Source: Ensifer adhaerens
GTDB lineage: Bacteria > Pseudomonadota > Alphaproteobacteria > Rhizobiales > Rhizobiaceae
Direction: 5' to 3'
DNA length: 64,000 nt
Assembly: GCF_001270265.1 (NCBI RefSeq)
Contig: NZ_LGAP01000007.1
Span: 124,001 to 188,000, forward strand
The notes under the pieces are model-generated. The model was not told the origin of the DNA and ran no database searches. It saw only the letters and a list, made by a program, of their open reading frames with translations. Below are positions 226-22,994 of the stretch, piece after piece. Each line of letters starts with the position of its first letter. Within the stretch, counting starts at the first letter, position 1. The position numbers and the translations under genes were made by a program.

Positions 226-1374
226 TCACCATGACGGTCCAAGCCACCGAACAATTTCATAAGCCGGCATCGGGCGGTGGAAACCCTTCAGAGTCAATTC
301 GCCAACAGGAATGGATTCGATGAGTGGCTCGACCGCGCCGAAGACCCGCTGGCTGACGAGAATCTGACGGGATTTGGCCTCCTCGCACAATCGGGCCGCA
401 TGGTTCGGAACGGTACCGATGACCGCATAATCCGAGCGCTGGTCGAAGCCGATCTGTCCGATGGTTGCGTGGCCCCGGTCGATGCCGATTCCGAAACCGA
501 GCACATAGCCGCGCTTGCGCCATCGCTCTGAATGCTCGTCAATGGCGTCACGCATCGCCACGGCCATTGAAACAGCTCTCTCGGTGTGGCCGGCGCAGGG
601 CAGGGGGTCGTTGAAAATCACAACAATGCCGTCACCCACGAACCGCTCCAACGTCCCTTCGTGGCGGGTGATTTGTTCACCGAGACAGGAATGGTACTCG
701 CCAAGAACTGTCATCACCTCTTCAGGCTCGGCAGTCTCGGCAAATGCTGTAAAGCCGCGCAGATCGCAGAAAACGACCGTCACCTCGCGGCGGTGGCTTT
801 GGAGAAGCGCGTCGCCATTGCCGGTCGCAACTATGAGATCGGCAACCTGAGCGGGCAGATACCGTCGGAGTCGAGCCATCCGCTCGATCTCCGTGATCTG
901 CTCCGCCACTTTCTGTTCCAGGGATTGGTTCCATGCTGCCAGTTGCGCCGCCTGGTCCTGAAGGCTCCGCGCCTGGGCTTCGACGGTGTCGTGAAGCGCC
1001 TTCTGCCGCAGCATCGAGCGGACGCGTGCCAGCAGCGCCTTGTGCTCGAACGGCTTGGTCAGATAGTCGTCGCCGCCGGCGTCCAACCCCTCGATGACAT
1101 CTCGCGTGTCGGCTTTCGCCGTCACGAGGATGACCGGGATCGATTGTAGCGAAATGTCCTGCTTGAGCAGGCGCACGACGCTGATGCCGTCGAGCTTCGG
1201 CATCATGATGTCGAGAAGGATGAGGTCAGGCTTGACGTCGCGCACTTTAGCAAGCGCCTCTTCGCCATCCGCGGCGGTCACCACTTCGTAGCCATTCGCC
1301 TCGAGGCGCATGCGCAGGATTTCGAGATTCTCCGGCGTGTCGTCGACGGCGAGAATGCGGGGCGGATCGTGCAT
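226..1374 (-). CDS. response regulator with class III adenylate/guanylate cyclase output domain
   Basis: The 382-residue product starts MHDPPRILAVDDTPEN; the open frame continues 65 codons upstream but that part overlaps the preceding receiver gene, so the ATG at 1374 is preferred. Residues about 1-125 form a CheY-type receiver (acidic pair VDD, phospho-acceptor in LILLDIMMPKLDG, VTAK, TKPF). A helical linker (about 130-185) leads to a class III nucleotide cyclase domain with both metal aspartates (FCDLRGFT, FVGDGIVVIFND) and the transition-state Asn and Arg (VPNHAARL). The usual Asp before the Asn motif (GDxVN) is Thr here (GTVPN), so nucleotide preference is uncertain. It follows the receiver gene by 13 bases and is last in the six-gene operon. 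Phosphorylation probably controls second-messenger synthesis. Confidence 0.9.
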   Translation of the reverse strand: MHDPPRILAVDDTPENLEILRMRLEANGYEVVTAADGEEALAKVRDVKPDLILLDIMMPKLDGISVVRLLKQDISLQSIPVILVTAKADTRDVIEGLDAGGDDYLTKPFEHKALLARVRSMLRQKALHDTVEAQARSLQDQAAQLAAWNQSLEQKVAEQITEIERMARLRRYLPAQVADLIVATGNGDALLQSHRREVTVVFCDLRGFTAFAETAEPEEVMTVLGEYHSCLGEQITRHEGTLERFVGDGIVVIFNDPLPCAGHTERAVSMAVAMRDAIDEHSERWRKRGYVLGFGIGIDRGHATIGQIGFDQRSDYAVIGTVPNHAARLCEEAKSRQILVSQRVFGAVEPLIESIPVGELTLKGFHRPMPAYEIVRWLGPSW

Positions 1375-1387
1375 GGTGCAGCCTCCC

Positions 1388-1753
1388 TCAGGCCAGGAGT
1401 TCCCGGACCTTTGCCAGCAGTTGGCGCGGGCTGAATGGCTTGGCGACGTAGCCGTCGCATCCTGCAGCCAGGGCTTTCGCCTCATCGCCCGACAACGCGT
1501 AGGAAGTGACGGCGATGATTGGGATGTGCTGGAGCGCCGGATCGGACTTGATGCGGCGAGTCGCTTCATACCCGTCCATCACCGGTAGCTGGATGTCCAT
1601 AAGGATCAAGTCCGGCCTGTGGGCCGCCGCAGCCGCCACGCCGGCGGCACCATCCGCGGCCTCGATCAGTTCATATTCGGTCGTGGCGATGAGATCGCGG
1701 ACGATCTGGCGATTGTCTTCAGTGTCTTCCACCATCAGGATTCGTTTGCTCAT
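1388..1753 (-). CDS. single-domain response regulator (CheY/DivK-like receiver)
   Basis: This 121-residue protein consists only of a receiver domain: acidic residues in MVEDTEDN, the phospho-acceptor Asp in LILMDIQLPVMDG (near residue 54), VTSYA and the conserved Lys in AKPF. There is no output domain, so it probably passes phosphate on or acts by protein contact, as DivK and CheY do. Its ATG overlaps the stop of the kinase gene (ATGA at 1750-1753), which indicates translational coupling. The receiver-cyclase gene follows after 13 bases. The kinase lacks its own receiver, so this protein and the cyclase regulator are its likely phosphorylation targets; that pairing is inferred from position. 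Confidence 0.93.
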   Translation of the reverse strand: MSKRILMVEDTEDNRQIVRDLIATTEYELIEAADGAAGVAAAAAHRPDLILMDIQLPVMDGYEATRRIKSDPALQHIPIIAVTSYALSGDEAKALAAGCDGYVAKPFSPRQLLAKVRELLA

Positions 1754-4362
1754 GCGGCTTGAACGTGCTCCTCTGCATCGATTGGTATCGTCATGCGGAA
1801 CGTCGCACCGGAACCGGGCACCGATTCCACGCTTATTGTTCCGCCGTGCATTTCGACAAAGCGTTTCGAGATAGCCAGACCGAGACCCGTGCCGCCTTTC
1901 TGCCGGGTGCTGCTGTTGTCGACTTGCTGGAATTCCTCGAATATGAGCGCCTGGTCTTTAGGCGCAATGCCCGGACCGGTGTCCCGTACGACGATCTCGA
2001 AGTGACCATCGGCTGCGTTGGCGAAGATGTCGACAGAGCCCGATTCCGTGAACTTGATAGCGTTGCCGGCAATATTGAGCAGGACCTGGGTCAGGCGGCG
2101 CTCGTCGCCGCGGCCGGTCGGAAGGCCGTTCGCAACTGTCGTTGTGAACGCCAGGCCCTTCTCCCGCGCCAGCGGCTCGACGGCAGCGGCGGCGGTGCGA
2201 ACGATCTGCCCAAGGGAATAATCGTCAAGTGCCAGTGTCAGTTGGCCGGCTTCGATCTTCGAAAGATCCAGCACGTCGTTAATGAGGCCCAGAAGATGGC
2301 GACCGTTGGCCTGCACGCGCGCCACCGTCGCTTTTGCCCTGTCCGGAAGCTCACCGTAAATGCCGTCGACCAGCAGTTCGGTGAAGCCCAGAACCGAGTT
2401 GAGCGGCGTCCTCAGCTCGTGGCTCATATTCGCGAGGAACTGAGATTTGTGGCGGCTAGCGGCCTCGAGCTCCCGGCCCTTTTCCTCTATCTCGCGGAAC
2501 AGCTTGGCGTTTTGAATGGCGAGCACCGACTGGGCGGCAAAGGTTTCCATCAGGTGGACAACCTGCTGGTCGAATTCTCCGGGTTTGCGGCGCCTGACGA
2601 CGAGAGCGCCGACAATCTTGTTCGGCCTGAGCAATGGAACAATCAGCACGCCGCGATATCCCGCGTCGCGGATAATTTTCTGAACGGGAGTCGGCGTTCC
2701 TTCACCGAGTTCGGGCACTTGCACAGGTTCGCGGCGCCGAGCGGCATCACCGATCCCTGGATCATTCAGAGAAATGGTCTGCCCCGAAATGGCGGCAACA
2801 AGCTCTTCGCTCATTCCATAGGTTGCACGAGGGCGGAACTCTTGCCTAGTGCTGCTGAACACAAAGATAGTACCTGCATCCGTGTCCGAGAGTTGCACGG
2901 CCTTTGCGACGATCGTCTGCAGTACGGTGTCGAGATCAAGCGTCGAATTGACGGCCTTGGTGACTTCGCCAAGCGCTTCCAATTCGGCGACGGAGCGCGC
3001 AAGTTCGGCCGTGCGCGCCTGGACCTCTTGGAACAGACGCACATTCTCGATCGCGATCACCGCCTGGTCGGCAAAGGTCGTGAGCAGTTCAATCTGCTTG
3101 CGGTCGAATGGCCGAATCTCGACCCGACGGATTATCAGGCTTCCGATGGCTTCGTCTTCCCGTAGAAGTGGGGCAGCAAGGGTCGTCCGATGGCCAAGCC
3201 GCATCGCCATTTGTCGGCCCGCGGGGAAATCATCGCCTGCGGTGCTAAGATCGCTTACGTGCACGGTCTTCCGGTCTACAAAGGCGCGACCGGCAACCCA
3301 GTCACGGCTGATCGGGTATTTCACGAAATCAATCGGGATCGGGCCGTGATGCGCCCTGATTGTCAGCGACTCACCGTCTTTCAGGAGTATGGCCGCGTCG
3401 TAAGCATCGCAGAGCTTTGCCGCGCTCTCGGCAACGGCATTGAGGACGGGTTGAATGTCGGTCGGGGAAGCGGCGATCGTGCGCAGGATCGCGCTCGTCG
3501 CTATCTGCTGCTCAAGTGTTTCGGTCAGCTCTCGGTTGCGGGTCTCGATTTCCCGGTACAGCCGTCCGAGTTGCGCTGAGGTCTGGTTGACATTGTCGGC
3601 AAGCGCCCCAAGCTCGTCCCGGTTGCCGACCGCAACCTGTTGGGCAAAGTCGCCGGCCGCTATCTGACGCAGACGCGCCTCGATCTTCTTAACGGGGTCG
3701 ACCAGCGACCAGGAGATGACGTAGCCAAGACCCAATGCCAGCAGGATGCTACCCACAGCAAATGACACTACGACCAGTCGCGAGGTATCGTAGGCTCCCT
3801 CCGTCACCTCGATTGCCGTCACCATGTCAGCTTCGGCCATGTTGACCAGCTGGTTTGTCAGCCGTTCGAGGCGGTCGGCCGATGGCATGATCTCATCGAG
3901 CTGGACTTTGCGTGCCTCCTCTGTGCGGCCGGAGCGGATGAGCTCCGCGACGCGCATCACGCCAGCTGTAAACCGGTCATACTCGAGCCGCACCTGACCG
4001 AGCACGCCCGCCTCGCTTGTGGCGACGAATTCCATGCGATCGAGGTCGTAACCGAACTGGCTGAGCTGGCGTAGCGCCGCATCCAGCATTCTCTCGTCTT
4101 GGAGCAAAAGTGCCGTCGAGATGCTGTAGAGCTGGTTGGTCGTGTCGTGCTGGACCTGGCGATAGGCTGCGATCCTACGCTGCAGCTTGATTAGTTCGGT
4201 TGTCTGATCGTTGACCCCGCTCAACACCTGCAACCCGACCGCCCCGAGCGCGATCAACAGTCCGACGATCGATAGGAACGCGATCAGGAGTTTGGTCTGG
4301 ACGCGCACCGGCAGACGCGCAACCCAACTAATCAGCCGGGTCGCGACACTACCGGGCTTCAT
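1750..4362 (-). CDS. membrane sensor histidine kinase (sensor loop, HAMP, two GAF, HisKA, HATPase_c)
   Basis: About 870 residues from ATG 4362; the frame extends 30 codons upstream, but inside the preceding SCO gene. Visible in order: TM1 (about 20-42, TKLLIAFLSIVGLLIALGAV), a helical periplasmic region, TM2 (about 190-208), a HAMP segment (SLVDPVKKIEARLRQIAAGD), a first GAF domain (about 290-440), a second GAF domain (about 455-605), HisKA with the phospho-acceptor His in FLANMSHELRTPLNSVLGF, and HATPase_c with N and G boxes (NIAGNAIKFTESG, DTGPGIAP, GGTGLGLAISKRF). No receiver is fused at the end. Its start overlaps the SCO gene by 14 bases and its stop overlaps the receiver gene by 4. Ligand is unknown; the two binding proteins and the SCO protein encoded just upstream are candidate signal carriers. 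Confidence 0.92.
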   Translation of the reverse strand: MKPGSVATRLISWVARLPVRVQTKLLIAFLSIVGLLIALGAVGLQVLSGVNDQTTELIKLQRRIAAYRQVQHDTTNQLYSISTALLLQDERMLDAALRQLSQFGYDLDRMEFVATSEAGVLGQVRLEYDRFTAGVMRVAELIRSGRTEEARKVQLDEIMPSADRLERLTNQLVNMAEADMVTAIEVTEGAYDTSRLVVVSFAVGSILLALGLGYVISWSLVDPVKKIEARLRQIAAGDFAQQVAVGNRDELGALADNVNQTSAQLGRLYREIETRNRELTETLEQQIATSAILRTIAASPTDIQPVLNAVAESAAKLCDAYDAAILLKDGESLTIRAHHGPIPIDFVKYPISRDWVAGRAFVDRKTVHVSDLSTAGDDFPAGRQMAMRLGHRTTLAAPLLREDEAIGSLIIRRVEIRPFDRKQIELLTTFADQAVIAIENVRLFQEVQARTAELARSVAELEALGEVTKAVNSTLDLDTVLQTIVAKAVQLSDTDAGTIFVFSSTRQEFRPRATYGMSEELVAAISGQTISLNDPGIGDAARRREPVQVPELGEGTPTPVQKIIRDAGYRGVLIVPLLRPNKIVGALVVRRRKPGEFDQQVVHLMETFAAQSVLAIQNAKLFREIEEKGRELEAASRHKSQFLANMSHELRTPLNSVLGFTELLVDGIYGELPDRAKATVARVQANGRHLLGLINDVLDLSKIEAGQLTLALDDYSLGQIVRTAAAAVEPLAREKGLAFTTTVANGLPTGRGDERRLTQVLLNIAGNAIKFTESGSVDIFANAADGHFEIVVRDTGPGIAPKDQALIFEEFQQVDNSSTRQKGGTGLGLAISKRFVEMHGGTISVESVPGSGATFRMTIPIDAEEHVQAA

Positions 4363-4933
4363 CCACGAGGCTGAGAAGATCACTCCGGAACTCCTCCAAG
4401 TCGAAACCAGCGCCGATATACTGCACGCGCAAGCTGCCGCTACGATCCACAAGCGACGTCAGCAGGGTATGATCGACGTCGCCGCTCGCCGTCTTCCTCG
4501 CTATGACGCCATACCTCCGCCCCACATCATGAACGACTGCCGGATCGCCGGTGAGAAACACCCAGCCCTTCACATCGGCGGCGAAAATCTGCGCGTATTG
4601 CTTCAGCACTTGGGGCGTATCCCGCTCTGGGTCGACGGTGATCGAAACGAAGCTGATCTGCGGCCCGAATGCAGAACCGAGCTTGTCTTTCACGCGCGCC
4701 ATGTTGTCGGTCAGCATCGGGCAGATGTCGGTACAGGAAGCAAAGATGAACGCGACGGCGACCACCTTGCCGCGAAGGTCGCGGAGTGACACAGGTACAC
4801 CGTCCTGCGACGTCAGAGTAAAGTCCGGCGCTGCTCCGATAGTCGGCAAGCGCTGGTCGTGCGATGCATCATGCGCCGGCGCTGGCCCGGCTAGCAGCGC
4901 CAACAGCAGAACCTGTGCGGGCCACCTCCTCAT
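4349..4933 (-). CDS. SCO1/SenC-family thioredoxin-fold protein
   Basis: The 194-residue product has an N-terminal signal sequence (MRRWPAQVLLLALLAGPAPA) and an SCO1/SenC/PrrC domain. The copper/thiol motif CTDICP (CxxxC) and the distal His in DHTLLTSLVD are both present, so copper binding or thiol chemistry in the periplasm is plausible. Family members deliver copper to cytochrome oxidase or act as redox sensors, and some regulate two-component systems. There is no oxidase gene nearby. It overlaps the preceding binding-protein gene by the ATGA at 4930-4933 and the kinase gene by 14 bases. That coupling favours a signalling role here over oxidase assembly, which is an inference. Confidence 0.9.
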   Translation of the reverse strand: MRRWPAQVLLLALLAGPAPAHDASHDQRLPTIGAAPDFTLTSQDGVPVSLRDLRGKVVAVAFIFASCTDICPMLTDNMARVKDKLGSAFGPQISFVSITVDPERDTPQVLKQYAQIFAADVKGWVFLTGDPAVVHDVGRRYGVIARKTASGDVDHTLLTSLVDRSGSLRVQYIGAGFDLEEFRSDLLSLVDEAR

Positions 4934-5949
4934 GACTTTAACTCACGCCTCAGTTCGTTGACAAAGCGCCAATCCGCACCATTGGCGATGATTTCGCGGG
5001 GGCCCGACTTGATCATGCCCGTCTCCTGCAGGCGCAGCGCGTAGAAGCGCAGAGAGGCTTCAGCATCATAGTCGTGCCACCTATCGTAGCGGATGTCGTT
5101 CAGAGTCTGCAGTGCGATTTCATAGCTGGGGACGAAACCTCGATCGACCAACTGCTGCGCAATCAATGCCGGATCCGACGCACAGAGATCGGCTGACTTG
5201 AAGATTGCCCGCAGGATACGCTTGGTCGCCACCGGGTATCTGTTCACATAATCCTCGGTGGCGGAAATCATACAGCAGAAATGCTGTGACCATGGTGGGT
5301 CAATGGTCGAATTGAGGATCGTATGGCCGATTTTCTTGGGGCGCAGCATCTGCGCAACGGGTGGTTGGCCGAGGAATGCGTCAAATTTTCCTTCGACGAA
5401 GCTGTTCGCCATCGTCTCATCGTTTGGCACGATGACCCATTCGATATCATTGACGGGATCGAGCCCGACATAGCCGGCCATCAGAGCGACTAACACGTAC
5501 CCCGCCGTCTCGAGGTCAAACACGCCCACCCGCTTTCCTCGCAGATCCGTAATGCTGTGGACGCTGTCGTTGGCGATCAATTCGAGGCATCCAGAATGCA
5601 GGCCGCCAAGCACCTTGATCGGTATGCCGGCGTCGATCGACGAGACATGAACAGGCGCGTAGTTCACACTGAAATCCGTTTCGCCGCGTGCAATCCACAC
5701 CGACTGATCGACCTTTGGGTCGCCTTGCACGTATCGGACATCGGTGAAGCCCTCGGCGCGCAGCAGCTCTCCTGCGGTGTACAAGCCCGCCCAGCAGTAA
5801 GCGCCATCGATCCACCGCGGCAAGCGGACAGAGGTCGTTTCCGGGGCCGGTTCCGCAGCGGCGCTGGACGGCCGGACTTTGAGCAGCTCCGCACTTACGG
5901 CCGCCGTCAGACCAGCCAGAAAGGTGCGACGATTTTGAATGATCTGCAT
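4930..5949 (-). CDS. ABC-type substrate-binding protein, NMT1/SsuA-like (second copy)
   Basis: A 339-residue periplasmic binding protein of the NMT1/THI5-like class, with a Tat/Sec-type N-terminus (MQIIQNRRTFLAGLTAAVSA). Conserved features include the hinge segment ITDLRGKRVGVFDLETAGY and DPVNDIEWVIVP, typical of nitrate, sulfonate or thiamine-precursor binding proteins. It is clearly homologous over its full length to the product of 5992-6999 (shared PWSQ.FCCM and 'ATKRILRAI..ADLC' stretches), so the two arose by tandem duplication. A strong Shine-Dalgarno (AAAGGAGG) precedes ATG 5949. No permease or ATPase gene is linked. Its stop overlaps the SCO start. Ligand cannot be told from sequence. 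Confidence 0.88.
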   Translation of the reverse strand: MQIIQNRRTFLAGLTAAVSAELLKVRPSSAAAEPAPETTSVRLPRWIDGAYCWAGLYTAGELLRAEGFTDVRYVQGDPKVDQSVWIARGETDFSVNYAPVHVSSIDAGIPIKVLGGLHSGCLELIANDSVHSITDLRGKRVGVFDLETAGYVLVALMAGYVGLDPVNDIEWVIVPNDETMANSFVEGKFDAFLGQPPVAQMLRPKKIGHTILNSTIDPPWSQHFCCMISATEDYVNRYPVATKRILRAIFKSADLCASDPALIAQQLVDRGFVPSYEIALQTLNDIRYDRWHDYDAEASLRFYALRLQETGMIKSGPREIIANGADWRFVNELRRELKS

Positions 5950-5991
5950 TGGCCCCCTCCTTTCGTTCGAAAGAGCGCGCCGGCGACCTGC

Positions 5992-6999
5992 TTACGTCTT
6001 CAGCTCGCGTTTCACCTCATTGAGGAAGCGCCAATCGATACCGTTGGCAATGATTTCTTGCGGGCTCGACTTGATCATGTCGGACTCGTGCAGCCGCAGG
6101 GCGTAAAACCGAATCGTGTCCTCGGGATCGTATTCGCGCCATTTGCCGTAAGGCACCTCGCTCATCGTCTGGAGGGCATAATCATAGTTGCCGGTGAATC
6201 CGCCATCGACGATCTGGCGCGCGACCCGCCGCGGCTCGGCGACGCATAGGTCTGCCGCCCTGAGAATGGCGCGCAACACGCGCTTGGTGGCGACAGGGTT
6301 GTTCCGAACGAAGTCCGCATTGCCAGCCAGCATGCAGCAGAAATACTGCGACCAGGGACGATCGATGGTACTGTTTACCACTACGTGGCCGATGTTGCGG
6401 GCGCGCAGTTCCTGGGGCTCGGGTGGAAATCCGAGAAACGCGTCTACTTTTCCTTTGATGAAAAGCTCCATGGGCCTGACGGATGGATCGGTCACCCAGC
6501 GGATGTCCCTTTGTGGGTCAAGCCCGACATAGGCCGCCATGCTGGTCACGAACACGTGCGGTGTTGAACCCAGGCCTTGTATGCCTACAGTTTTGCCCTT
6601 CAGGTCTGTGATGCCGCGAATGCTTTCGTTTCCGAACAACTCGAAGCAGCCCGGATGCACGCCAGCCAGCAGTGTGATCGGGTGGCCCGCATCGATCGCA
6701 AGGACAAGTGGTGCAGCGAAGTTCAAACTGAAGTCCACATCACCGCGTCCGATCTGCTCGGCCTGGCCGTAGCCTGCTTCCGCCGTCACATAGCGGACGT
6801 CTGTGAAACCCTCCAAGTGCAGCAGCTCCTCGGCGACATACTGGGGGGCGATGCAGATGCCCCTGATCTTCGCCAGGCGGATAGTGCTGGTTTCCAACGG
6901 CGCTTCGGCGGCAAACGATTCCGCTGCGCCGACCAAACCAGCGACGACCGCAGACGTCGCGTTTGCCAAGAAGCGGCGGCGGCTTAGCATAAGGTGCAT
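5992..6999 (-). CDS. ABC-type substrate-binding protein, NMT1/SsuA-like (first copy)
   Basis: A 335-residue protein with twin-arginine-like leader (LSRRRFLANATSAVVAGLVG) and an NMT1-type periplasmic binding fold (ITDLKGKTVGIQGLGSTPHVF, LDPQRDIRWV). ATG 6999 is supported by AAGGAG six bases upstream. It is the first gene of the six-gene minus-strand unit that ends with the receiver-cyclase; 42 bases separate it from its paralogue. Both copies keep the shared residues PWSQYFCCM, which may line the ligand pocket. The lack of transporter components suggests a sensing role for the neighbouring kinase, by analogy with binding proteins that dock on sensors; this is inference. Confidence 0.88.
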   Translation of the reverse strand: MHLMLSRRRFLANATSAVVAGLVGAAESFAAEAPLETSTIRLAKIRGICIAPQYVAEELLHLEGFTDVRYVTAEAGYGQAEQIGRGDVDFSLNFAAPLVLAIDAGHPITLLAGVHPGCFELFGNESIRGITDLKGKTVGIQGLGSTPHVFVTSMAAYVGLDPQRDIRWVTDPSVRPMELFIKGKVDAFLGFPPEPQELRARNIGHVVVNSTIDRPWSQYFCCMLAGNADFVRNNPVATKRVLRAILRAADLCVAEPRRVARQIVDGGFTGNYDYALQTMSEVPYGKWREYDPEDTIRFYALRLHESDMIKSSPQEIIANGIDWRFLNEVKRELKT

Positions 7000-7578: not shown

Positions 7579-8019
7579 TTAGGCCCCGAGCCGCGTCTCT
7601 GCGTAGTTATCGTTGTAGTCGTCGTTTGCGTGGCCGATCTCATGCTTGGCAGCTCGAACCAAGAAGCCTGATCGGGTCAACCCTTGGGCTTCGGCGAACG
7701 CATCGATTGCCTTTAGGACGTCTTCTGGCAGAGTGATATTTACGCGAACCGCTCTTTTGGCTTCCGTCTTGACGCCAACTAGAATTGCAACGCCGTCTTG
7801 ATTCTCCGCGTCTGCCATCACCGCCTCCAGTGTGGAGGGTTCGGGAATTGCTTCGCCGTCTTCGGCTAGACCTTCGATGTGTAGGGCTAAGGCTTCTTCG
7901 GCCATAGCTCGCGCATCGTCGAGGTCGGTTCCAGCAGTGATCAGGCCAGGAAAATCGGGAAAGGACACACCGTAATCACTGTCGGCGTCCTTATGGATCA
8001 ATCCGATATAATTGCGCAT
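7579..8019 (-). CDS. hicB: HicB-family antitoxin
   Basis: The 146-residue product has the two-part HicB layout. Residues 1-70 form the degenerate RNase-H-like fold (YIGLIHKDADSDYGVSFPDF, GLITAGTDLDDA, EALALHIEGL), which covers the toxin. Residues about 90-135 form a ribbon-helix-helix DNA-binding motif (VRVNITLPEDVLKAIDAFAEAQG, followed by TRSGFLVRAA). The gene lies 5 bases downstream of hicA, in the toxin-first order usual for hicAB. It neutralises HicA and should repress the operon through the ribbon-helix-helix domain; the palindrome at 8223-8240 is the likely site. Confidence 0.93.
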   Translation of the reverse strand: MRNYIGLIHKDADSDYGVSFPDFPGLITAGTDLDDARAMAEEALALHIEGLAEDGEAIPEPSTLEAVMADAENQDGVAILVGVKTEAKRAVRVNITLPEDVLKAIDAFAEAQGLTRSGFLVRAAKHEIGHANDDYNDNYAETRLGA

Positions 8020-8024
8020 GTTCG

Positions 8025-8213
8025 TTACCTCAGTTTAAGTCCGGCTTGTTTCTCGATACTCTTCAGTGTTCCGATCGGGATGTCCCGTTTCGGGTGTGGA
8101 ACAGTGACGCGCCCGGGTTTCTCGGGATGCTTAAACTGAACATGGCTGCCCTTGGTGGCGACCTCGTACCAGCCATCCTTTTGCAAGGCCACAATGATAT
8201 CACCGCTCTTCAT
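8025..8213 (-). CDS. hicA: HicA-family mRNA interferase toxin
   Basis: A 62-residue dsRBD-like toxin, MKSGDIIVALQKDGWYEVATKGSHVQF, with the catalytic His in the GSHVQFKHP motif and the usual end TLKSIEKQAGLK. The open frame extends 42 codons upstream, but ATG 8213 matches the family's start and length. HicA cleaves mRNA when freed from HicB. All family residues that can be checked are intact, so the toxin is probably functional. The pair sits at the edge of an IS-rich block, a frequent position for stabilising modules on plasmids. Confidence 0.92.
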   Translation of the reverse strand: MKSGDIIVALQKDGWYEVATKGSHVQFKHPEKPGRVTVPHPKRDIPIGTLKSIEKQAGLKLR

Positions 8214-8222
8214 TTCCAGATT

Positions 8223-8240
8223 ATACACACGAATGTGTAT
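8223..8240. promoter_or_regulatory. palindromic operator candidate of hicAB
   Basis: A perfect 7-bp inverted repeat, ATACACA-CGAA-TGTGTAT, ends 10 bases upstream of the hicA ATG. Ribbon-helix-helix regulators such as HicB bind short palindromes of this kind in their own promoter, so autoregulation is likely. The position is seen directly; binding is inferred. Confidence 0.6.
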
Positions 8241-8379
8241 GGTGACAAGCGCAACGTAGTATGACTCCGGTTCCTCAGTGATAGGTGAGGTTCTCAAATA
8301 GGCCACCAATGCGCGACGGACACTTAACGATCGAAGCATGTTCCCGTTATGTGCTTAGAAAATCACATAATGTATCAGG

Positions 8380-9580
8380 CCTTTATCAACGAAAGACAGC
8401 AATAGCCTTGCTATCCATGGGTTGCCATGCGATTCTTCGGGCATGATCCGAGCGAGATGAGAATGTCGGAAACGATGCTTGCAGCGCTTACCAACATTCG
8501 GACCGCGGAAGATATGATCGTGGCCTTTCGCGATGAGGAGCAGTGTCGGAGGTTGCTGGAAAGCATGGTGTGGCCGGCTGGGAGAGTTTGCCCTGCCTGT
8601 GGTTACAAACGTTCGATCGCGATAGCCGGCCGCGATATGGGCAAGCGGCGTGCGCGTCCGGGTCTCTATCAATGCTCCAGCGGTGATTGCCGGTTCCAGT
8701 TCACGGTGACGACCCACACGCCTCTGCATTCCACAAAGCTTCCTTTGCGTGTCTGGCTGAAGGGCATGTGGCTTATGTTGCAGTCGGATAAAGGTTTGTC
8801 CTCGGTGCGCCTGGCCGAGGCTCTGGGGGTGAGCCAACCCACAGCCTGGCGGATGGGACACGCGCTGCGTCTCATGGCGGCGCGCGAGCACATGCTCGAT
8901 GGCACGGTGGAGATCGACCATTTTCATCTCGGTGGGCGACCGAGAAAAAATCCGGACGATCCACCGCCTGGACGAGGCCGAAAAGGTCTGCCAAATACGC
9001 AGAAGACACCGGTCATGGCGATGGTGCAGCGACCAGATGACGTCACACCCGGCACTCCGGCCGGTGACGCCCGTGCTGCGGTGGTGACTGGTCTTTCGCT
9101 ACGTGCAGCGGCGCGTGCCGTCGAAACGCAGATCGAACCCCATGCCCGTTTGATGAGCGATGAGGCGAAGGCGTTCATGGCCATTGGCGAGAACTATGCC
9201 AGGCATGACACCGTGAAGCATTCCAGCCGCGAATACGTTCGCGACGCCGTCCATGTCAATTCGGTCGAAGGTTTCAATTCCCGCGTCCGTCGCACAATTG
9301 CCGGCGTCTTTCATCATATCAGCCCGCAGCATGCGGACCTGTATTTCCACGAGATCGGCTTCCGCTGGTCACAGCGCATTGTTACGGGCCAGGCTGTGCG
9401 GAAAAGCCGAAATGGCAGGGAACGCATGAAAACCCTGTGGTCACGGGTGCCGCCGGCGCTGCAATTGCTGCAAGTCTTTCGCGCTGCTACCGGCCGTCAA
9501 ATGCGCAGAAGTCCGGATGGTGGGATCATCGTCAAATCAGCAGTCGCTGTCTTTGGTTGTCTAATCGCTCCCCGCAAAAC
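8380..9580 (+). mobile_element. IS1595-family insertion sequence (approximate limits)
   Basis: The element carries the IS1595-type transposase gene. Inverted sequences flank it: CAACGAAAGACAGC at 8387-8400 and, on the opposite strand, CAACCAAAGACAGC at 9546-9559 (13 of 14 match), which I take as parts of the terminal inverted repeats. The outermost bases and the 8-bp target duplication could not be fixed with certainty, so the limits are estimates. Confidence 0.6.
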
Positions 9581-9680
9581 AAGTCTTTTTTGCATTATTT
9601 CACTATGGTCCGTTTGCTCGGCTTGTCGCACGTGGCCGCCCGATTTCGATAAACAATCGCGTAGCATGGTCGTTACGTAG
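8427..9680 (+). CDS. IS1595-family transposase
   Basis: The 417-residue frame starts MRFFGHDPSEMRMSE. An N-terminal zinc ribbon is visible (CPACGYKRS ... YQCSSGDCRFQF), then a helix-turn-helix-like segment (SSVRLAEALGVSQPTAWRMGH), then the ISXO2-type DDE domain: Asp in VEIDHFHLGGRPRKN, Asp in LMSDEAKAF, and VNSVEGFNSRVRRTIAGVFHHIS with the third acidic residue. The frame runs through the presumed right inverted repeat (encoding VAVFGCLIAP) and on into flanking DNA, so the last 40 or so residues are probably not native to the element. Whether the transposase still works is unknown. Confidence 0.88.
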   Translation: MRFFGHDPSEMRMSETMLAALTNIRTAEDMIVAFRDEEQCRRLLESMVWPAGRVCPACGYKRSIAIAGRDMGKRRARPGLYQCSSGDCRFQFTVTTHTPLHSTKLPLRVWLKGMWLMLQSDKGLSSVRLAEALGVSQPTAWRMGHALRLMAAREHMLDGTVEIDHFHLGGRPRKNPDDPPPGRGRKGLPNTQKTPVMAMVQRPDDVTPGTPAGDARAAVVTGLSLRAAARAVETQIEPHARLMSDEAKAFMAIGENYARHDTVKHSSREYVRDAVHVNSVEGFNSRVRRTIAGVFHHISPQHADLYFHEIGFRWSQRIVTGQAVRKSRNGRERMKTLWSRVPPALQLLQVFRAATGRQMRRSPDGGIIVKSAVAVFGCLIAPRKTSLFCIISLWSVCSACRTWPPDFDKQSRSMVVT

Positions 9681-9944
9681 GAATGCGTCTTTGAAGTACG
9701 TTTGCCAGGAGCACGGTTGTCTTCGCGGTCGGCAACTGAGGCCGCCGCAGTATGGGTTTCGCTGGATAGGTCTTCCAATGTTGATAACGCAGTTCAAGAC
9801 GTAACCCTTGCTGCAACCAAATACGCGGAATAACCCGACCCACGTCCCGGCAAGGACGTCTCGATGCATCCGAAGCAATGGACGCAATTCTGATAGCTCC
9901 TTGACTTACATCATCTGTGCGCTCCCGACGTTTTTATCATCAGT

Positions 9945-10970
9945 TCAGGCGGTTGTGCCGATAGTTCTCTCAAAGAGCTGACCAGTCTTCAGCATCGTGT
10001 GCATGATGACGACGAGCTTTCTCGCCACAGCAATCGCCGCCCGCTTGAAGCCGATCCTTTCCCTCAGCTTCAGGCCCCATCTGCGAAGTGCGCTGTCGGC
10101 CTGGGCTCGGGTCAGGATAACCCCAGCCGCTTCGTACAAGAGAACCCGCAGATATTTGTCGCCGCGCCGCGATATGTGCCCGTCATAATCAACTTCACCG
10201 GACTGATAACGCCGGGTGGTCAGACCCAGCCATGCTCCGACAGCGCGGGACGTCTTGAAGTTTTCCGGTGCTTCGATTGCTGCCGTGAATGTTGCCGCTG
10301 TAACCGCACCGACACCTGGAATGGACATGAGCAATCGGCATGGAGTGCTCGTTCGCGCGGTGGCAACAAGCTGCCGGTCAAGCTCTGCAGCCCGGGTGCG
10401 GATACTGCACCAAGCTTCCAGCAGTGGCACGATGATCTGTTCAAGCATGCCATTGCTGGCAAGCAGCCTGCGCACATGGGCTTCAAAGACGCGTCCTGCT
10501 CCTTTCGGAACAATGAGCCCGAAGGTTTTCATGAGACCTCGTATCTGATTGGAAAGATCAGTCACAATTTTGATCAACTGACCGCGGGCACCGACAAGGG
10601 TACGGGTCAGCATGCTGTTAGAATCCTTCACCCGGACTGCTTTGTAAAAGCCAACCTCGGCAAGATGAGCCAAGCCGTCGGCATCGTTTGCATCGGTCTT
10701 GTTCGTCGCCATATTGAGCGCCGCTTTGGCGTGCCGAGCATCAATGCAGATTGCCGGGACACCCTGTGCAGTCAGCTCATGGTAAAACCAGACCGACAAA
10801 GGTCCCGTCTCGAATACCACGCGCTTTGCTTTCGGAGCGCGTTCACGGATAACAGCTGCCAGTAATTGCGGATCGGATGCGCATTTTCCACGCCATACCC
10901 GCTTGCCATTTCGCCGCACCGAAATCGCGGTGTCTTTCAACGATACGTCGAGCCCGATATATTCTTCCAT
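9945..10970 (-). CDS. IS110-family transposase
   Basis: From ATG 10970 (MEEYIGLDVSLKDTAISV) the protein has 341 residues; GGGAAAC lies just upstream, and the frame extends 24 codons further without family similarity. The N-terminal DEDD RuvC-like domain is visible (GLDVSLKDTAI, FETGPLSVWFY, NKTDANDADGLAHLA), followed by a coiled segment and the C-terminal transposase_20 domain (LMSIPGVGAVTAATFTAAI, FKTSRAVGAWLGLTTRRYQSG, ISRRGDKYLRVLLYEAA) that carries the catalytic Ser region. IS110 elements have no clear terminal repeats, so the element ends cannot be set. The gene appears complete. Neighbouring IS1595 and IS21 elements make this a nested insertion hot spot. Confidence 0.93.
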   Translation of the reverse strand: MEEYIGLDVSLKDTAISVRRNGKRVWRGKCASDPQLLAAVIRERAPKAKRVVFETGPLSVWFYHELTAQGVPAICIDARHAKAALNMATNKTDANDADGLAHLAEVGFYKAVRVKDSNSMLTRTLVGARGQLIKIVTDLSNQIRGLMKTFGLIVPKGAGRVFEAHVRRLLASNGMLEQIIVPLLEAWCSIRTRAAELDRQLVATARTSTPCRLLMSIPGVGAVTAATFTAAIEAPENFKTSRAVGAWLGLTTRRYQSGEVDYDGHISRRGDKYLRVLLYEAAGVILTRAQADSALRRWGLKLRERIGFKRAAIAVARKLVVIMHTMLKTGQLFERTIGTTA

Positions 10971-11042
10971 GGTTGTTTCCCGTTCGATGCTTGGGACAGG
11001 CCCCGCGCCATGATCCCGTTTTTCCATCTTGTCGGGGAACAA

Positions 11043-11494
11043 CCACCTTGGCGACGTCGTGGAAATATCCGTTCAGCAGCCAGTAGGGCACCGCTCCCGC
11101 GATTACCCCATGTTGATAAAGGCCATGTATCAGAAGGAACTCGATCCCGGCCGGCTGACGTAAGGTCTTAATCTGCTTCGGCTTCCCGCATGATTTTATA
11201 GGGATCGGCGCCGATGCTTTACTCACCTTGGGGAACTCGGCTGTCTCCAGGCGGCGCTCGCCGAGTTCAAAGTTAGAAATAAAACTTTGCAGTTGGCCAA
11301 TGCGCTGGCCTAACGTCAGATTCGCGGCCATCGGCGAGATCACCCGAGCTCGGTCGTCGAGCGGTTGACAGAGGCATGCAGGTGGGCGTGAGATGAACTG
11401 CGGCTCCGCGGCAATCCACGACCACGAGGATTCATCGGGGAAGAGATTCGGCAGGTTTGGGCGGAGTTCTTCACATTCTGCGGAGCGGTATGTC
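11043..11494. other. region between IS110 and the split RNase Z-like gene
   Basis: No recognisable gene. A 166-codon minus-strand frame (10843-11343) spans the IS110 start but shows no family motif and is probably chance. The region should contain the IS110 end and the promoter of the RNase Z-like gene that starts near 11495. Confidence 0.4.
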
Positions 11495-11646
11495 GTGTTT
11501 CTTGTTCAACCGAGGTTGGTCAATGAGCCTTTCGGGGATGCAGGCCTCCTGCTTGATTTCAATTTCACGTCGCGTGCTATCCTTTTCGATCTCGGCGACC
11601 TGGCCCCCCTTCCGGCTGGTACAATTTCCAAGATCCGGCAGGTATT
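11495..11646 (+). pseudogene. RNase Z-like metallo-hydrolase, 5' part, split by IS21
   Basis: The frame reads [20 protein letters not shown] then a segment ending [17 protein letters not shown], which is the N-terminal strand region of RNase Z-like metallo-beta-lactamases. A GTG at 11495 with GCGGAG upstream is a plausible start; the frame is open further upstream but without similarity. At 11647 the IS21-family element begins. Joining 11646 directly to 14276 keeps the frame and gives ..KIRQVF-VSHMHMDHFAGF.., with the metal-binding HxHxDH motif just after the joint. The rejoined protein would have 336 residues, a normal length for this family. Confidence 0.8.
11641..11646. repeat. IS21 target-site duplication, left copy (GGTATT)
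   Basis: GGTATT at 11641-11646 is repeated at 14270-14275, directly outside the two ends of the IS21 element. Removing one copy and the element restores the reading frame of the RNase Z-like gene. Confidence 0.75.
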
Positions 11647-11824
11647 TGCGGGTTTCGGCAAAGTCCGGACAGGGTTTCCGGTAATCTCCGGACACAGTTT
11701 TCAGTAATTCCCGGACAGTGATTCCGCTAAATCCCGGACAGTTTTCCGGCGGCGGTTTGACGGTTGGTTCGCGGCTGCGCCGTCTTGTTGGTTAAGCCTC
11801 TCACGACAACGTTGAGAGGGGCCG

Positions 11825-13375
11825 ATGCCGAGACGGAAGCAAGCAAGACGAACGACAGTGAGGGATATCCGGACCATTCTGCGCCTGACCCACGAAGAGG
11901 GTCTTTCGGTGCGCGAGATTGCCGAGCGGCTGAAGATCGGCAAGAGCTCGGTATCGACCTATTTGCTGCGATCTCGGGAGGCCGGGCTTTCGTGGCCGTT
12001 GCCAGTCGGCGCGGACGAGGATGCAAAGCTGGAGCGGCGGCTGTTCGGCCGAGCCGGTCGACCGCCGCGCGATCTCGGCGAGCCGGACTGGGCGGTGGTG
12101 GTTCGGGAGCTGAAGCGCAAAGGGGTGACGCTGACGCTTCTATGGCAGGAATACCGTGCCAATCATCCCGATGGTTACGGCTTCACGTGGTTCTGCGAGC
12201 AGGTTGCCACCTTTCGGCAGCGCACGAGTGTAGCGTTCCGCAATCGGCACGCGGCGGGCGCCGTGATGCAGACTGACTATGCCGGGCCGACGGTGCCGGT
12301 GATCGATCCGGCGACCGGTGTCATCCATCCGGCCCAAATCTTTGTCGCGGTGCTGGGCGCCTCCAACCTGACCTTCGCCCATGCCAGCTTTAGCCAGCAG
12401 TTGCCGGATTGGATCGACGGCCAGGTGCGTGCTCTGACCTTCTATGGTGGGGTCACCAAGGCAATCGTGTGCGACAACCTCAAATCAGGGGTGGCCAAGG
12501 CCCTTTGGTTCGAGCCGACGTTGACTGCGACGTTCGCCGCCATGGCGGAGCATTACGACACCACGATCCTGCCGACACGCAGCAGGAAACCGCGCGACAA
12601 AGGCCGGGTCGAAGGCGCGGTGCTGATCGTGGAACGCTGGATTCTGGCCCGGCTCAGGAACCGCACCTTCTTCTCGCTTGCCGCCCTCAACACGGCGATT
12701 GCCGAATTGCTCGAGGAGCTGAACAACCGGACGATGCGCCACGTCGGCAAAAGTCGCCGCGAACTGTTCGAGGAGATCGAGCGGGCAGCATTGAAGCCTT
12801 TGCCGGTGATGCCGTTCGAATATGCGGAATGGAAGTCGGCGAAGGTTCACCCGGACTATCATGTCGAGGTCGACAAGACCTTCTACTCGGTGCCGCATCG
12901 GCTGATCGGATGCACCCTGCAGGTGCGGCTCACCCACCGGGTAGTCGAGATCTTCCACGATCACCAGCGTGTCGCCAGCCATGTTCGCCGCTCCCAGCGT
13001 TCCGGCCACGTTACCATCAATGACCATATGCCCAAGGCGCATCAGCGCTATGCCAACACCACGCCGGCCAATCTGATCGGCCGTGCGACCCAGATCGGCC
13101 CCAATGCCGCTATCCTGGTCGAACGCATGATGCGCGACAGGCCGCATCCGGAACAGGGATATCGCTCGGCCATGGGCATTCTGTCGCTGGCGCCGCGCTA
13201 TGGATCACAGCGCCTCGATGCCGCCTGTGAACGAGCGCTCACCATCAATGCCGTCACCTATTCCTCCGTCGCCTCCATCCTCAAATCCGGCCTCGACCGG
13301 GAAAGACCGCAGGCTGAACATGCGGCCCCCACGCCTGCGCATACCAATATCCGTGGCCGATCCTACTACCAGTGA
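11825..13375 (+). CDS. istA: IS21-family transposase IstA
   Basis: A 516-residue DDE transposase. Residues about 15-60 form a helix-turn-helix ([36 protein letters not shown]). The rve/DDE core has Asp in [14 protein letters not shown] (near residue 150), Asp in [11 protein letters not shown] and Glu in [15 protein letters not shown]. The C-terminal part ([21 protein letters not shown]) matches the usual IstA tail. It is read from ATG 11825 and its TGA overlaps the first bases of the istB region, so the two are translationally coupled. IstA binds the element ends and catalyses cut-and-paste transposition with IstB. Confidence 0.95.
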
Positions 13376-19822: not shown

Positions 19823-19844
19823 CCCACCCCTCATGAGGGGTGGG
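19823..19844. terminator. 22-bp perfect palindrome over the RND permease stop codon
   Basis: The bases 19823-19844 form a perfect palindrome built on CCCACCCCTCA/TGAGGGGTGGG, and the permease TGA lies at its centre. It could fold into a strong RNA hairpin at the end of the coding region. No T-run follows, so intrinsic termination is doubtful; it may protect the mRNA end. Confidence 0.4.
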
Positions 19845-22800
19845 TGGCCTCAGCAGCGAGCGGCGCCGCGGCTGCGTCGTCCTCATGCTGCGGTCGCTTG
19901 ATACGCAGGACCTTGAGGACGAACACGAAGAAGACCGGCACGAAGAAGATCGCCAGCACCGTGGCCGAGATCATCCCGCCGAGAACGCCCGTACCGATGG
20001 CGTTCTGGCTGGCCGCGCTCGGACCCGTCGCGATTGCGAGCGGCACGACGCCTAGCGTGAAGGCGAGCGAGGTCATGATGATCGGGCGGAAGCGCAGGCG
20101 TGCCGCCTCCACGGCCGAGTCCAGCAGGCTGCGCCCGCTCGCATAATAGTCCTTGGCGAACTCCACGATCAGGATCGCGTTCTTGGCCGAAAGCCCGATG
20201 ATCGCGATCAGGCCGACCTTGAAGTAGATGTCGTTGGACATCCCCCGCAGCATGATGGCGAGCACGCAGCCGATGACGCCGAGCGGCACTACCAGGATGA
20301 CCGAGACCGGAATCGACCAGCTTTCGTAGAGCGCGGAAAGGAGCAGTACGACGAACAGGATGCTGAGCGCGAACAGGATCGGCGCCTGCGTGCTCGACTT
20401 GATCTCCTCGAGCGACAGGCCCGTCCATTCATAGCCGAACCCCTTCGGCAGTTCGGCGGCGAGGCGCTCCATCTCGGTGATGGCGTCACCCGACGAATAG
20501 CCCGGTGCCGGAGCGCCGGACAGGCGCACCGCCGGATAGCCGTTGTAGCCGATGATCTGTAGCGGCCCCTTCTGCCATTCGATGCTCGCGAAGGACGACA
20601 TCGGCACCATGCCGCCGTTACGGTTGCGCACGTTCAGCTTCATCAGGTCGTCGGTCTGAAGCCGGCTTTCGTCCTGGGCCTGCACGACGACGCGCTGCAT
20701 CCGCCCCGCGTTCGGGAAATCGTTGATGTAGGCGGAGCCGAGATTGGCGGTGATGGTGTCGTTGATGTCGGCGAAGGTGACGCCGAAGGTGTTGGCCTTC
20801 TTGCGGTCGATGGTCATGACAGCCTGCGCCGCGAAGGGCAGGCCCTCCGGCCGGATGCCGACGATCTTGCCGCCGGCGCCGGCCTTGCCCATCAGTTCGC
20901 CCGCCGCCTGCTGCAGCGCCGCCTGGCCGAGGCGGCCACGGTCCTGAAGGCGGAAGGTGAAGCCAGCGGAGGTGCCAAGCCCTTCGATCGGCGGCGGTGA
21001 CAGCGCGAACGACATCGCATCCTTCAGGCCGAAGAGCTGCATGTTGATGCGGTTCGAGATGTCTTGTGCCGCGTTGCCTGCACCACGCTCGGCCCAGTCC
21101 TTCAACGTAACGAACATGATCGCGGAGTTCGCGCCGTTGCCCGAGAAGCTGAAGCCCTGGATGGCGACGACATTGGCGACGCCGGGCTCGTCATTGAAGA
21201 ACCCTTCGATCTGTTCGAGCGTGGCGATCGTCCGGTTGCGGCTCGCTTCCGACGGGCCGAGGACGTCGACGATGATATAGCCCTGATCCTCATCAGGCGC
21301 GAAGGCGCTGGGAAGACGCACGTACATGTAGCCAAGCCCCAGGCAGAACGCGAGGTAGACGATCATGAGGCGGCCGGGCCGACGTGCCATGGCGGCAGCC
21401 GTGCCGGCATAGCCGTTCGTCAACCGGTCGAACTTGCGGTTGAACCAGCCGGCAAGACCCTTCTTCTCGTGAAGCCCGTGCGGGATCGGCTTGAGGAAGG
21501 TCGCACAAAGGGCTGGCGTCAGGGTCAGCGCCAGCATGGCCGAGAACAGGATCGACACAACCATGGTGATGCTGAACTGGCGGTAGATCACGCCGACGGA
21601 GCCGGGGAAGAAGGCCATCGGAATGAACACGCAGGAGAGCACCAGCGTGATGCCGACGATCGCGCCGGTGATCTGGCCCATGGCTTTGATCGTCGCCGCC
21701 TTCGGCGACAGGCCTTCTTCGGCCATGATGCGCTCGACGTTCTCGACGACGACGATGGCGTCGTCGACCAGGATGCCGATTGCGAGCACCATCGCGAACA
21801 TGGTGAGCACGTTGATGGAGAAGCCCGTCGCCATCATGATGGCGCAGGTCCCGAGCAGCGCGATCGGCACGACGATCGTCGGGATGAGCGTGTAGCGGAC
21901 GTTCTGCAGGAACACGAACATCACGACGAAGACAAGCACCATTGCCTCGATCAGCGTGTGAACGACCTTCTCGATCGACGCCTCGACGAATGGGCTCGTG
22001 TCATAGGGGATGGTGTAGCTGATGCCTTCGGGGAAGAAGGCAGAGAGCTCCTCCATCTTCGCCTTGATGGCGGTCGCGACTGCCACGGCATTGCCGGACG
22101 ACGAGAGCTGGATGCCGACATTGGCGGCCGGCCGGCCATTCAGGCGGCTGGAGATGTTGTAGTTCTCCGCGCCGATCTCGATACGGGCGACATCCTTCAA
22201 GAGGACGGTCGAGCCGTCCGGATTGGCGCGCAGGACGATCTCGCCGAACGCTTCCGTATCGGCGAGCTGACCGTGAACGAGCACGGTGGCGGTCAGATCC
22301 TGATTGAGCGGATTGGGAGCCGCGCCGATCTGGCCGGCGGCAACCTGGGCATTCTGCGCGGCGATGGCGGCATTGATATCGGCGGCGCTGATATTGTAGC
22401 CGACCATCTTGTCGGGATCGACCCAGACGCGCATGGCGCGCTGTGCCGAGAACAACTGGGCACGGCCGACGCCGTCGATGCGGCGCAGCTCGCCCAGAAT
22501 GTTGCGGCTGAGATAGTCGCCGAGCGCGACCTGGTCGCGCCTGCCGTCGGTTGACGTCAGCGTAACGAAGAGCAGGAAGCCGGTGCTGGCCTCCTCGACG
22601 GTGACGCCCTGCTGGACGACCGCGCGGGGAAGGCGCGATTCGATGCGACGGATCGCGTTCTGCACGTCGACCGCAGCCAGCTTGATGTTGGTGCCGGACT
22701 CGAGCGTCACCGTGATCGAGACGGTGCCCGACGTGTCGGAGGTCGACTCGAAATACTGGAGATCGGGAACGCTGTTCAGCTCCTCCTCGATCAGACGCGT

Positions 22801-22983
22801 GACGCCTTGATAGAGGTCGGTCGGGGACGCGCCGGGATAGGTGGCGGTGAGGGTGAGTTGCGGCGGGGCGACCTTCGGATACTGCGAGATCGGCAGGAAG
22901 GGCAGCGCGATCAGGCCGCCGATCGCGAGGAATATCGCGATCACCCAGGCCATGATGGGGCGATTGATGAAATAAGTCGACAT
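19831..22983 (-). CDS. RND multidrug efflux permease (HAE1/AcrB family)
   Basis: The 1050-residue inner-membrane pump starts at ATG 22983 (MSTYFINRPIMAWVIAIFLA); the 49-codon upstream extension covers the adaptor's end and is not native. Typical features are seen throughout: the N-terminal helix, porter domain text (ATYPGASPTDLYQGVTRLIE), the TM4 proton-relay pair in LAIGILVDDAIVVVENVERI, and the TM10 Lys in GLIAIIGLSAKNAILIVEFA. Length equals that of AcrB/MexB. It should export hydrophobic drugs or plant compounds, powered by protons, with the adaptor encoded 11 bases upstream. The outer-membrane gene behind it is broken, so another chromosomal channel would be needed. Resemblance to rhizobial/agrobacterial AmeB or BepE types is general, not specific. 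Confidence 0.95.
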   Translation of the reverse strand: MSTYFINRPIMAWVIAIFLAIGGLIALPFLPISQYPKVAPPQLTLTATYPGASPTDLYQGVTRLIEEELNSVPDLQYFESTSDTSGTVSITVTLESGTNIKLAAVDVQNAIRRIESRLPRAVVQQGVTVEEASTGFLLFVTLTSTDGRRDQVALGDYLSRNILGELRRIDGVGRAQLFSAQRAMRVWVDPDKMVGYNISAADINAAIAAQNAQVAAGQIGAAPNPLNQDLTATVLVHGQLADTEAFGEIVLRANPDGSTVLLKDVARIEIGAENYNISSRLNGRPAANVGIQLSSSGNAVAVATAIKAKMEELSAFFPEGISYTIPYDTSPFVEASIEKVVHTLIEAMVLVFVVMFVFLQNVRYTLIPTIVVPIALLGTCAIMMATGFSINVLTMFAMVLAIGILVDDAIVVVENVERIMAEEGLSPKAATIKAMGQITGAIVGITLVLSCVFIPMAFFPGSVGVIYRQFSITMVVSILFSAMLALTLTPALCATFLKPIPHGLHEKKGLAGWFNRKFDRLTNGYAGTAAAMARRPGRLMIVYLAFCLGLGYMYVRLPSAFAPDEDQGYIIVDVLGPSEASRNRTIATLEQIEGFFNDEPGVANVVAIQGFSFSGNGANSAIMFVTLKDWAERGAGNAAQDISNRINMQLFGLKDAMSFALSPPPIEGLGTSAGFTFRLQDRGRLGQAALQQAAGELMGKAGAGGKIVGIRPEGLPFAAQAVMTIDRKKANTFGVTFADINDTITANLGSAYINDFPNAGRMQRVVVQAQDESRLQTDDLMKLNVRNRNGGMVPMSSFASIEWQKGPLQIIGYNGYPAVRLSGAPAPGYSSGDAITEMERLAAELPKGFGYEWTGLSLEEIKSSTQAPILFALSILFVVLLLSALYESWSIPVSVILVVPLGVIGCVLAIMLRGMSNDIYFKVGLIAIIGLSAKNAILIVEFAKDYYASGRSLLDSAVEAARLRFRPIIMTSLAFTLGVVPLAIATGPSAASQNAIGTGVLGGMISATVLAIFFVPVFFVFVLKVLRIKRPQHEDDAAAAPLAAEATHPS

Positions 22984-22994
22984 GGGTCCCCTGA

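Follow-up and report, generated by a model that had tools for sequence, protein, structure and literature searches.

A conserved accessory cassette places orphan periplasmic binding proteins beside a sensor kinase, a receiver and a receiver-cyclase in Ensifer adhaerens and its relatives

What do periplasmic binding proteins serve when their operon encodes a sensor kinase and a nucleotide cyclase, and neither a permease nor an ATPase? The question is raised by six minus-strand genes at the beginning of a 64,000-nucleotide stretch of Ensifer adhaerens DNA (C67:124001-188000, contig C67 being NZ_LGAP01000007.1, in a genome of 7.46 Mb), the whole of which is referred to here as the window. A preliminary description had read these genes as one signal path, leading from a periplasmic ligand and/or a copper-redox state through the kinase to two receivers, one of them making cyclic adenosine or guanosine monophosphate (cAMP or cGMP). 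The comparison with related loci upholds a single conserved cassette of orphan binding proteins, SCO protein, kinase, receiver and receiver-cyclase; an essential role of the SCO protein and a constant input through the GAF domains of the kinase did not survive it. The cassette is a real, conserved and accessory arrangement, and we give about even chances to a path that runs from binding protein to kinase to cyclase.

The operon starts with SBP2 (5992..6999), an NMT1-type periplasmic binding protein of 335 amino acids (aa), followed by SBP1 (4930..5949), a second NMT1-type binding protein of 339 aa, an SCO1/SenC-type periplasmic protein of 194 aa (4349..4933), a sensor histidine kinase of 870 aa (1750..4362), a single-domain receiver of 121 aa (1388..1753) and a receiver-class III nucleotide cyclase of 382 aa (226..1374). 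The open reading frame (ORF) coordinates reproduced the spacing described earlier (+42, -4, -14, -4 and +13 bases), the SCO gene overlapping that of SBP1 by 4 bp and the kinase gene by 14 bp, and the domain identities of all six genes were confirmed by Pfam (among them NMT1/NMT1_2 in both binding proteins, Response_reg in the receiver, and Response_reg with Guanylate_cyc in the cyclase). The two binding proteins were likewise found to be orphans as described, with no permease or ATPase gene among or between the operon ORFs. A promoter and terminator scan returned 8 promoter-like sites, three of them on the operon strand, against 2.2 expected; it was not used as evidence.

Related loci were collected with the kinase as query against genome contigs, where the best 80 of 145 matches gave 75 loci, 34 of them holding the binding-protein family of the window. 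Together with the plasmid records L107 and L108, with L109 (the same record as L048), and with L118 and L119, which were found via the binding protein, these make 39 cassette loci (38 distinct), 34 of the 39 having been fetched with the kinase. The order binding protein(s)-SCO-kinase-receiver-receiver/cyclase, whose conservation the preliminary description had proposed to check, was present in 38 of the 39 loci where the kinase has this family of binding proteins as its neighbour. In these 38 the SCO gene stands between the binding-protein and kinase genes; the exception, L119, is without SCO, and there the two are direct neighbours. The order was kept in 37 loci when the nearest binding protein was required to lie within 400 bp of SCO, and it was seen in three annotated plasmid records, including pMVF16-4 (L048). 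The named genera with the cassette are Ensifer/Sinorhizobium, which hold the nearest named relatives of the window's cassette, Rhizobium, Mesorhizobium and Microvirga. A chance neighbourhood is ruled out by this synteny. The gene order of the preliminary description stood, and the number of binding proteins varied: contiguous arrays (less than 400 bp between neighbours) hold one copy in ten loci, two in eight, three in six, four in eight, five in three, six in two and seven in one, with none in L058, where a fragment intervenes.

Transporter genes were looked for in the same loci. A signature scan detected an ABC ATPase inside the operon in none of the 39 loci and outside it in three of the 39 stretches; it did not pick up the annotated ABC systems of L107 and L108, two in all, which lie about 10 kb away from the operon and are cut by the stretch ends. 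In L108, an additional short gene of 390 bp, 3 kb upstream and on the opposite strand, is annotated as 'ABC transporter permease'. A permease or ATPase between the genes in relatives, which the preliminary description had named as the finding that would speak against it, was encountered neither in the 39 loci nor in the annotated plasmid records. Three distant relatives of the binding protein, of ordinary function (L120, L122 and L124), adjoin permease/ATPase ORFs, and linked transporters are thus recognisable by this approach. A broken or cryptic ABC importer was rejected, since no transporter parts were found inside the operon. The binding proteins might instead serve a permease/ATPase encoded elsewhere, with a kinase that merely co-regulates and senses the cytoplasm through its GAF domains. 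Binding proteins of this fold commonly feed importers, the three distant relatives are transporter-linked, and the window kinase does have GAF domains. We nevertheless consider this unlikely, because the operon is without transporter genes in all 39 loci, because all three sampled genomes with the binding protein also have the kinase cassette, and because the GAF domains, numbering two to none, are the least conserved part of the kinase, whereas conservation at matched distance is highest in its periplasmic domain.

Binding-protein-activated sensor kinases include TorT-TorS, ChvE-VirA, LuxP-LuxQ and AioX-AioS. As in these systems, the binding-protein gene of the cassette adjoins the gene of a membrane kinase with a periplasmic domain, and no linked transporter is needed; unlike them, the cassette brings variable tandem arrays of paralogs onto one kinase, has SCO in between and ends in a receiver-cyclase instead of a DNA-binding regulator, contact between binding protein and kinase being a proposal. 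No published description of the arrangement was found in the open-access literature, nor any named system of such composition, as the preliminary description had supposed, and it is apparently an undescribed variant of binding-protein-activated two-component signalling. Of the characterised kinases of this kind, 10/11 are encoded beside their binding protein, according to the part of the source consulted (PMC11113362).

The window kinase has two transmembrane (TM) helices by hydropathy (about 25-43 and 198-216), which enclose a periplasmic domain (44-197) and are followed by HAMP, two GAF, HisKA and HATPase_c domains. The model of the periplasmic domain is all-helical (pLDDT 72) and recalls the sensor domains of MCP2201, PcaY, NarQ and Tar, also located between two TM helices; it differs in that its structural match to such four-helix domains is weak (best E 2.1e-3) and that the 4HB_MCP_1 match stays below the Pfam cut-off (22.3 vs 27 bits). 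Between Sinorhizobium and four Microvirga kinases this domain was 74-75% identical, the kinase core reaching 63-67% and the GAF region 39-41%. At kinase identities of 62-68%, the sensor was more conserved than the kinase in 141/141 pairs (sensor mean 75%), most of which represent one Rhizobiaceae/Phyllobacteriaceae-Microvirga split and so are not independent. Kinases with dCache-type sensors from the loci described below gave a sensor mean of 44% at kinase identities of 60-70% (16 pairs). By Pfam, the window kinase has two GAF domains, that of L057 one and that of L119 none, and the 34 cassette kinases comprise 21 long and 13 short forms. This varying copy number, together with the low conservation, weakens the GAF domains as the main input. 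Judged by sequence conservation, the conserved input of the kinase is the periplasmic helical domain and not the GAF domains.

The kinase, receiver and cyclase also occur as a trio behind unrelated binding proteins. Among 41 other kinase loci, receiver and cyclase both lie beside the kinase in 34, and five of the seven exceptions are cut off by a contig end. The upstream counts rest on 33 of the 41 loci, the other eight being without an upstream ORF. A PF04392-cluster binding protein stands upstream in 19/33 loci, within 150 bp in 16 and overlapping by 4 bp in 10; six PF04392 loci hold two to four binding-protein copies, and L089 has four tandem Peripla_BP_6 paralogs upstream of the trio. Pfam was run on three members of the PF04392 cluster (L071, L085 and L101); clustering at E 1e-6 also drew in a 594-aa ORF of L070, probably in the wrong frame, while the second member from that locus (323 aa) stands. 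A twin-arginine (RR) signal was present in 26/27 PF04392 proteins, and no alignment column had cysteine in at least half of these 27, which are 27 of the 29 cluster members, two having been dropped for length. Pfam identified dCache in the kinases of L071, L097, L100 and L089. Binding-protein families and sensor domains thus differ while the trio is constant, so the input side changes and the back end stays. Though a correlation, this exchange gives the best comparative clue to function. Upstream of the trio in L087 (5470-7278), L090 and L093 stands, in place of a binding protein, a caspase/FGE-sulfatase protein (by Pfam in L087) or an HlyD-like protein (by Pfam in L090).

Five cysteines (C52, C121, C225, C226 and C256 in SBP1, which also has H118) were kept in 111/111 aligned binding proteins of the cassette type, SBP2 included. 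The twin-arginine pair was aligned in 109/111, and a twin-arginine translocation (Tat) signal motif with its hydrophobic stretch was recognised in 105/111, four of these in over-extended starts; in SBP2 the signal reads SRRRFL. Export of both window proteins by this route is predicted. The AF2 model of SBP1 (pLDDT 89.1) has, over about residues 34-339, the fold of CmpA/NrtA/SsuA and of fungal THI5, from which the cassette proteins differ by an identity of only 13-17%, the Tat signal and the five invariant cysteines. The fold class is also common to DszB and MqnD, which raises the question of whether the cysteine-rich proteins act in the periplasm as THI5/DszB/MqnD-type enzymes, the kinase sensing what they make or consume. 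In a profile alignment, the C225-C226 pair falls on the second and third cysteines of the THI5 motif CCCFC, which is iron-binding and essential in the fungal protein according to the part of the source consulted (PMC10512395). At the aligned site, the binding proteins have FCCM instead of the CCCFC of THI5, a hydroxymethylpyrimidine phosphate (HMP-P) synthase, and we regard an enzymatic role as very improbable.

The paralogs of one array are seldom alike: only 1/161 same-locus pairs exceeded 80% identity (mean 53%), compared with a median of 94% for the best match in another locus, to which related strains contribute. This weighs against local duplication as the source of the arrays. Avoidance of similar paralogs within arrays was considered and dropped, 493/2000 shuffles being as low. 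A third paralog of the binding proteins, again with all five cysteines, is encoded on the minus strand at C67:122278-123309 (L106:14278-15309), 0.7 kb outside the left edge of the window and 0.9 kb beyond the stop codon of the cyclase gene; a small plus-strand ORF, cupin-like by eye, lies between these two genes. The relative in L120 stands in another neighbourhood (L120:4483-12861), with four of the five cysteines and beside YcaO, TfuA, a permease, an ATPase and a pyridoxal phosphate (PLP) enzyme of Cys/Met metabolism, which is a lead to a sulfur-containing ligand. Relatives of this L120 protein were found in 79 plasmid records.

The SCO protein scored 113 bits against a Pfam SCO1-SenC cut-off of 22.8, and its CxxxC motif (C67, C71) and histidine (H155) were conserved in 32/32 aligned SCO proteins. 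Two further SCO-family proteins are encoded on other contigs of the genome. SCO was present in 38/39 loci with cysteine-type binding proteins vs 0/41 other trio loci, and it is not a fixed element of the arrangement. The pairing, as a pattern of sequence co-occurrence, supports a thiol or copper role and may go back to a single evolutionary gain. In a trio locus of a Methylomirabilota metagenome-assembled genome (MAG), L101:2395-3888 encodes a fusion of a PF04392 binding protein with a SoxE/sulfocyanin cupredoxin that carries C-x4-H-x4-M, a second, independent copper hint. These data could also mean that SCO itself senses copper or thiol redox and signals to the kinase, the binding proteins being regulated passengers or carriers of a copper ligand. 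The overlap of the SCO and kinase genes, the invariant CxxxC and histidine and the L101 fusion would agree with this. We find it improbable, given that L119, whose sensor is homologous (50% identical), has binding protein, kinase, receiver and cyclase but lacks SCO, that the 41 other trio loci gave no SCO match and that the copper fusion is known from L101 alone. The best reading of SCO is that of an accessory thiol/copper partner; that its targets are the binding-protein cysteines is a tentative suggestion.

On the output side, the phospho-acceptor D53 of the single receiver was kept in 38/38 aligned proteins. The receiver-cyclase has a receiver with D55, the metal residues D204 and D248, and the transition-state residues N324 and R328 of class III cyclases, and its nearest solved relative is CyaB of Pseudomonas aeruginosa (E 8.5e-33). 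In these enzymes, Lys with Asp/Thr recognises adenine and Glu with Cys recognises guanine. The Lys position is Arg (R244) in 34/34 cassette and 22/23 other cyclases, and the partner position holds Ala or Ser in the cassette cyclases (A317 in the window). R244/A317 lies outside both canonical pairs, and cAMP vs cGMP is therefore not predictable. Histidine kinase, receivers and class III cyclase are joined in one polypeptide in the CyaC-type phosphorelay adenylate cyclases of cyanobacteria. The cassette resembles these in having the same components in one signalling chain, and differs in its three separate proteins, its transmembrane sensor and its non-canonical base-recognition residues. A Crp-type cNMP-binding regulator (Pfam) is encoded directly upstream of the trio at L066:6760-7833, which fits a cyclic-nucleotide output, and an ORF at L077:8390-8965 looks cNMP-binding by eye.

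The path from binding protein to kinase to cyclase would then run as follows. One to several NMT1-type binding proteins, exported by the Tat route and without a transporter of their own, would each capture a small ligand and, once loaded, dock on the kinase at its periplasmic domain of four-helix type and alter the activity of the kinase. The kinase would phosphorylate the single receiver, as a shuttle or sink, and the receiver-cyclase, whose cyclic-nucleotide synthesis would change in response. The paralogs would be ligand adaptors that can be exchanged for one another while the output stays the same. The five cysteines, together with H118, may make up a thiol or metal site on which ligand capture or the integrity of the protein depends; SCO may reduce or metallate this site. 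A broader and more speculative view, which we put forward as possible yet doubtful, makes the trio a general plug-in back end for orphan binding-protein arrays of unrelated families with a matching sensor. The rhizobial form would be a receptor that depends on metal or thiols: its Tat-exported binding proteins would be interchangeable, with cysteines loaded or reduced by SCO, and strains would retune their sensing by trading binding-protein genes. If so, the number of exchangeable binding proteins, and not the kinase, would set the input breadth of a second-messenger pathway; the cassette would be a natural system of swappable ligand adaptors with a cyclic-nucleotide read-out, and it would give SCO proteins a task, open to testing, that is separate from the assembly of cytochrome oxidase. 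Specific residues and surfaces are singled out by the invariant cysteines and by the sensor domain with its unusual conservation.

Several observations weigh against this path, in addition to the weak four-helix match and the shared split behind most kinase pairs. At kinase identities of 55-62%, mostly comparisons with L119, the sensor mean is 53% and lies below the kinase value in 35/38 pairs. The transporter-linked L120 protein shares C52, H118, C121, C225 and C226, which means that these cysteines are no hallmark of signalling, and the L119 binding protein has all five cysteines in a locus without SCO, which speaks against SCO being required. Neither a PF04392-cluster nor a Peripla_BP_6 binding protein lies directly upstream in 13/33 other trio loci, and some of their kinases show no clear TM pair. 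Plasmid pNGR234b of S. fredii NGR234 encodes a lone binding protein (L132:10449-11450), and 22 kb of sequence gave no match to kinase, SCO or cyclase. Moreover, the consulted part of a study on such systems reports no contact for three nearby pairs of binding protein and kinase that were tested, and cautions that adjacency need not mean a link (PMC11113362).

The cassette is rare and accessory. Among sampled genomes, of which usually only five candidates each were scored, the binding protein occurred in 3/397 of the order, 1/385 of the class (the window's own genome) and 3/398 of the phylum, the same three genomes throughout; the sensor domain was found in 1/16 genomes of the genus, and the cassette in 6 of 72,556 plasmid records. 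S. fredii SMH12 (L133) has separate remnants of kinase and cyclase. A symbiosis-specific system was not supported, the cassette being sparse among the sampled genomes; a NodA search gave no match, its control search being likewise matchless, and NifH-family matches were weak only. The cluster appears to be mobile and occurs in rhizobia as well as in certain other soil bacteria. Transposase-like ORFs immediately upstream of the operon (window 8427-13375), one with a Mu-transposase C-terminal domain (11825-13375) and the others recognised by eye, fit a mobile setting. The region looks plasmid-borne, with a MobA/MobL relaxase-helicase of 1150 aa that has a weak BID-domain match (39650-43102) and an AcrB-family efflux pump (19831-23130). 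Two small minus-strand ORFs at window positions 7579-8339 resemble a HicB/HicA toxin-antitoxin pair by eye. To the left of the window, L106:1884-12536 contains a 2540-aa ORF followed by ORFs that resemble, by eye, a type I secretion ATPase and adaptor.

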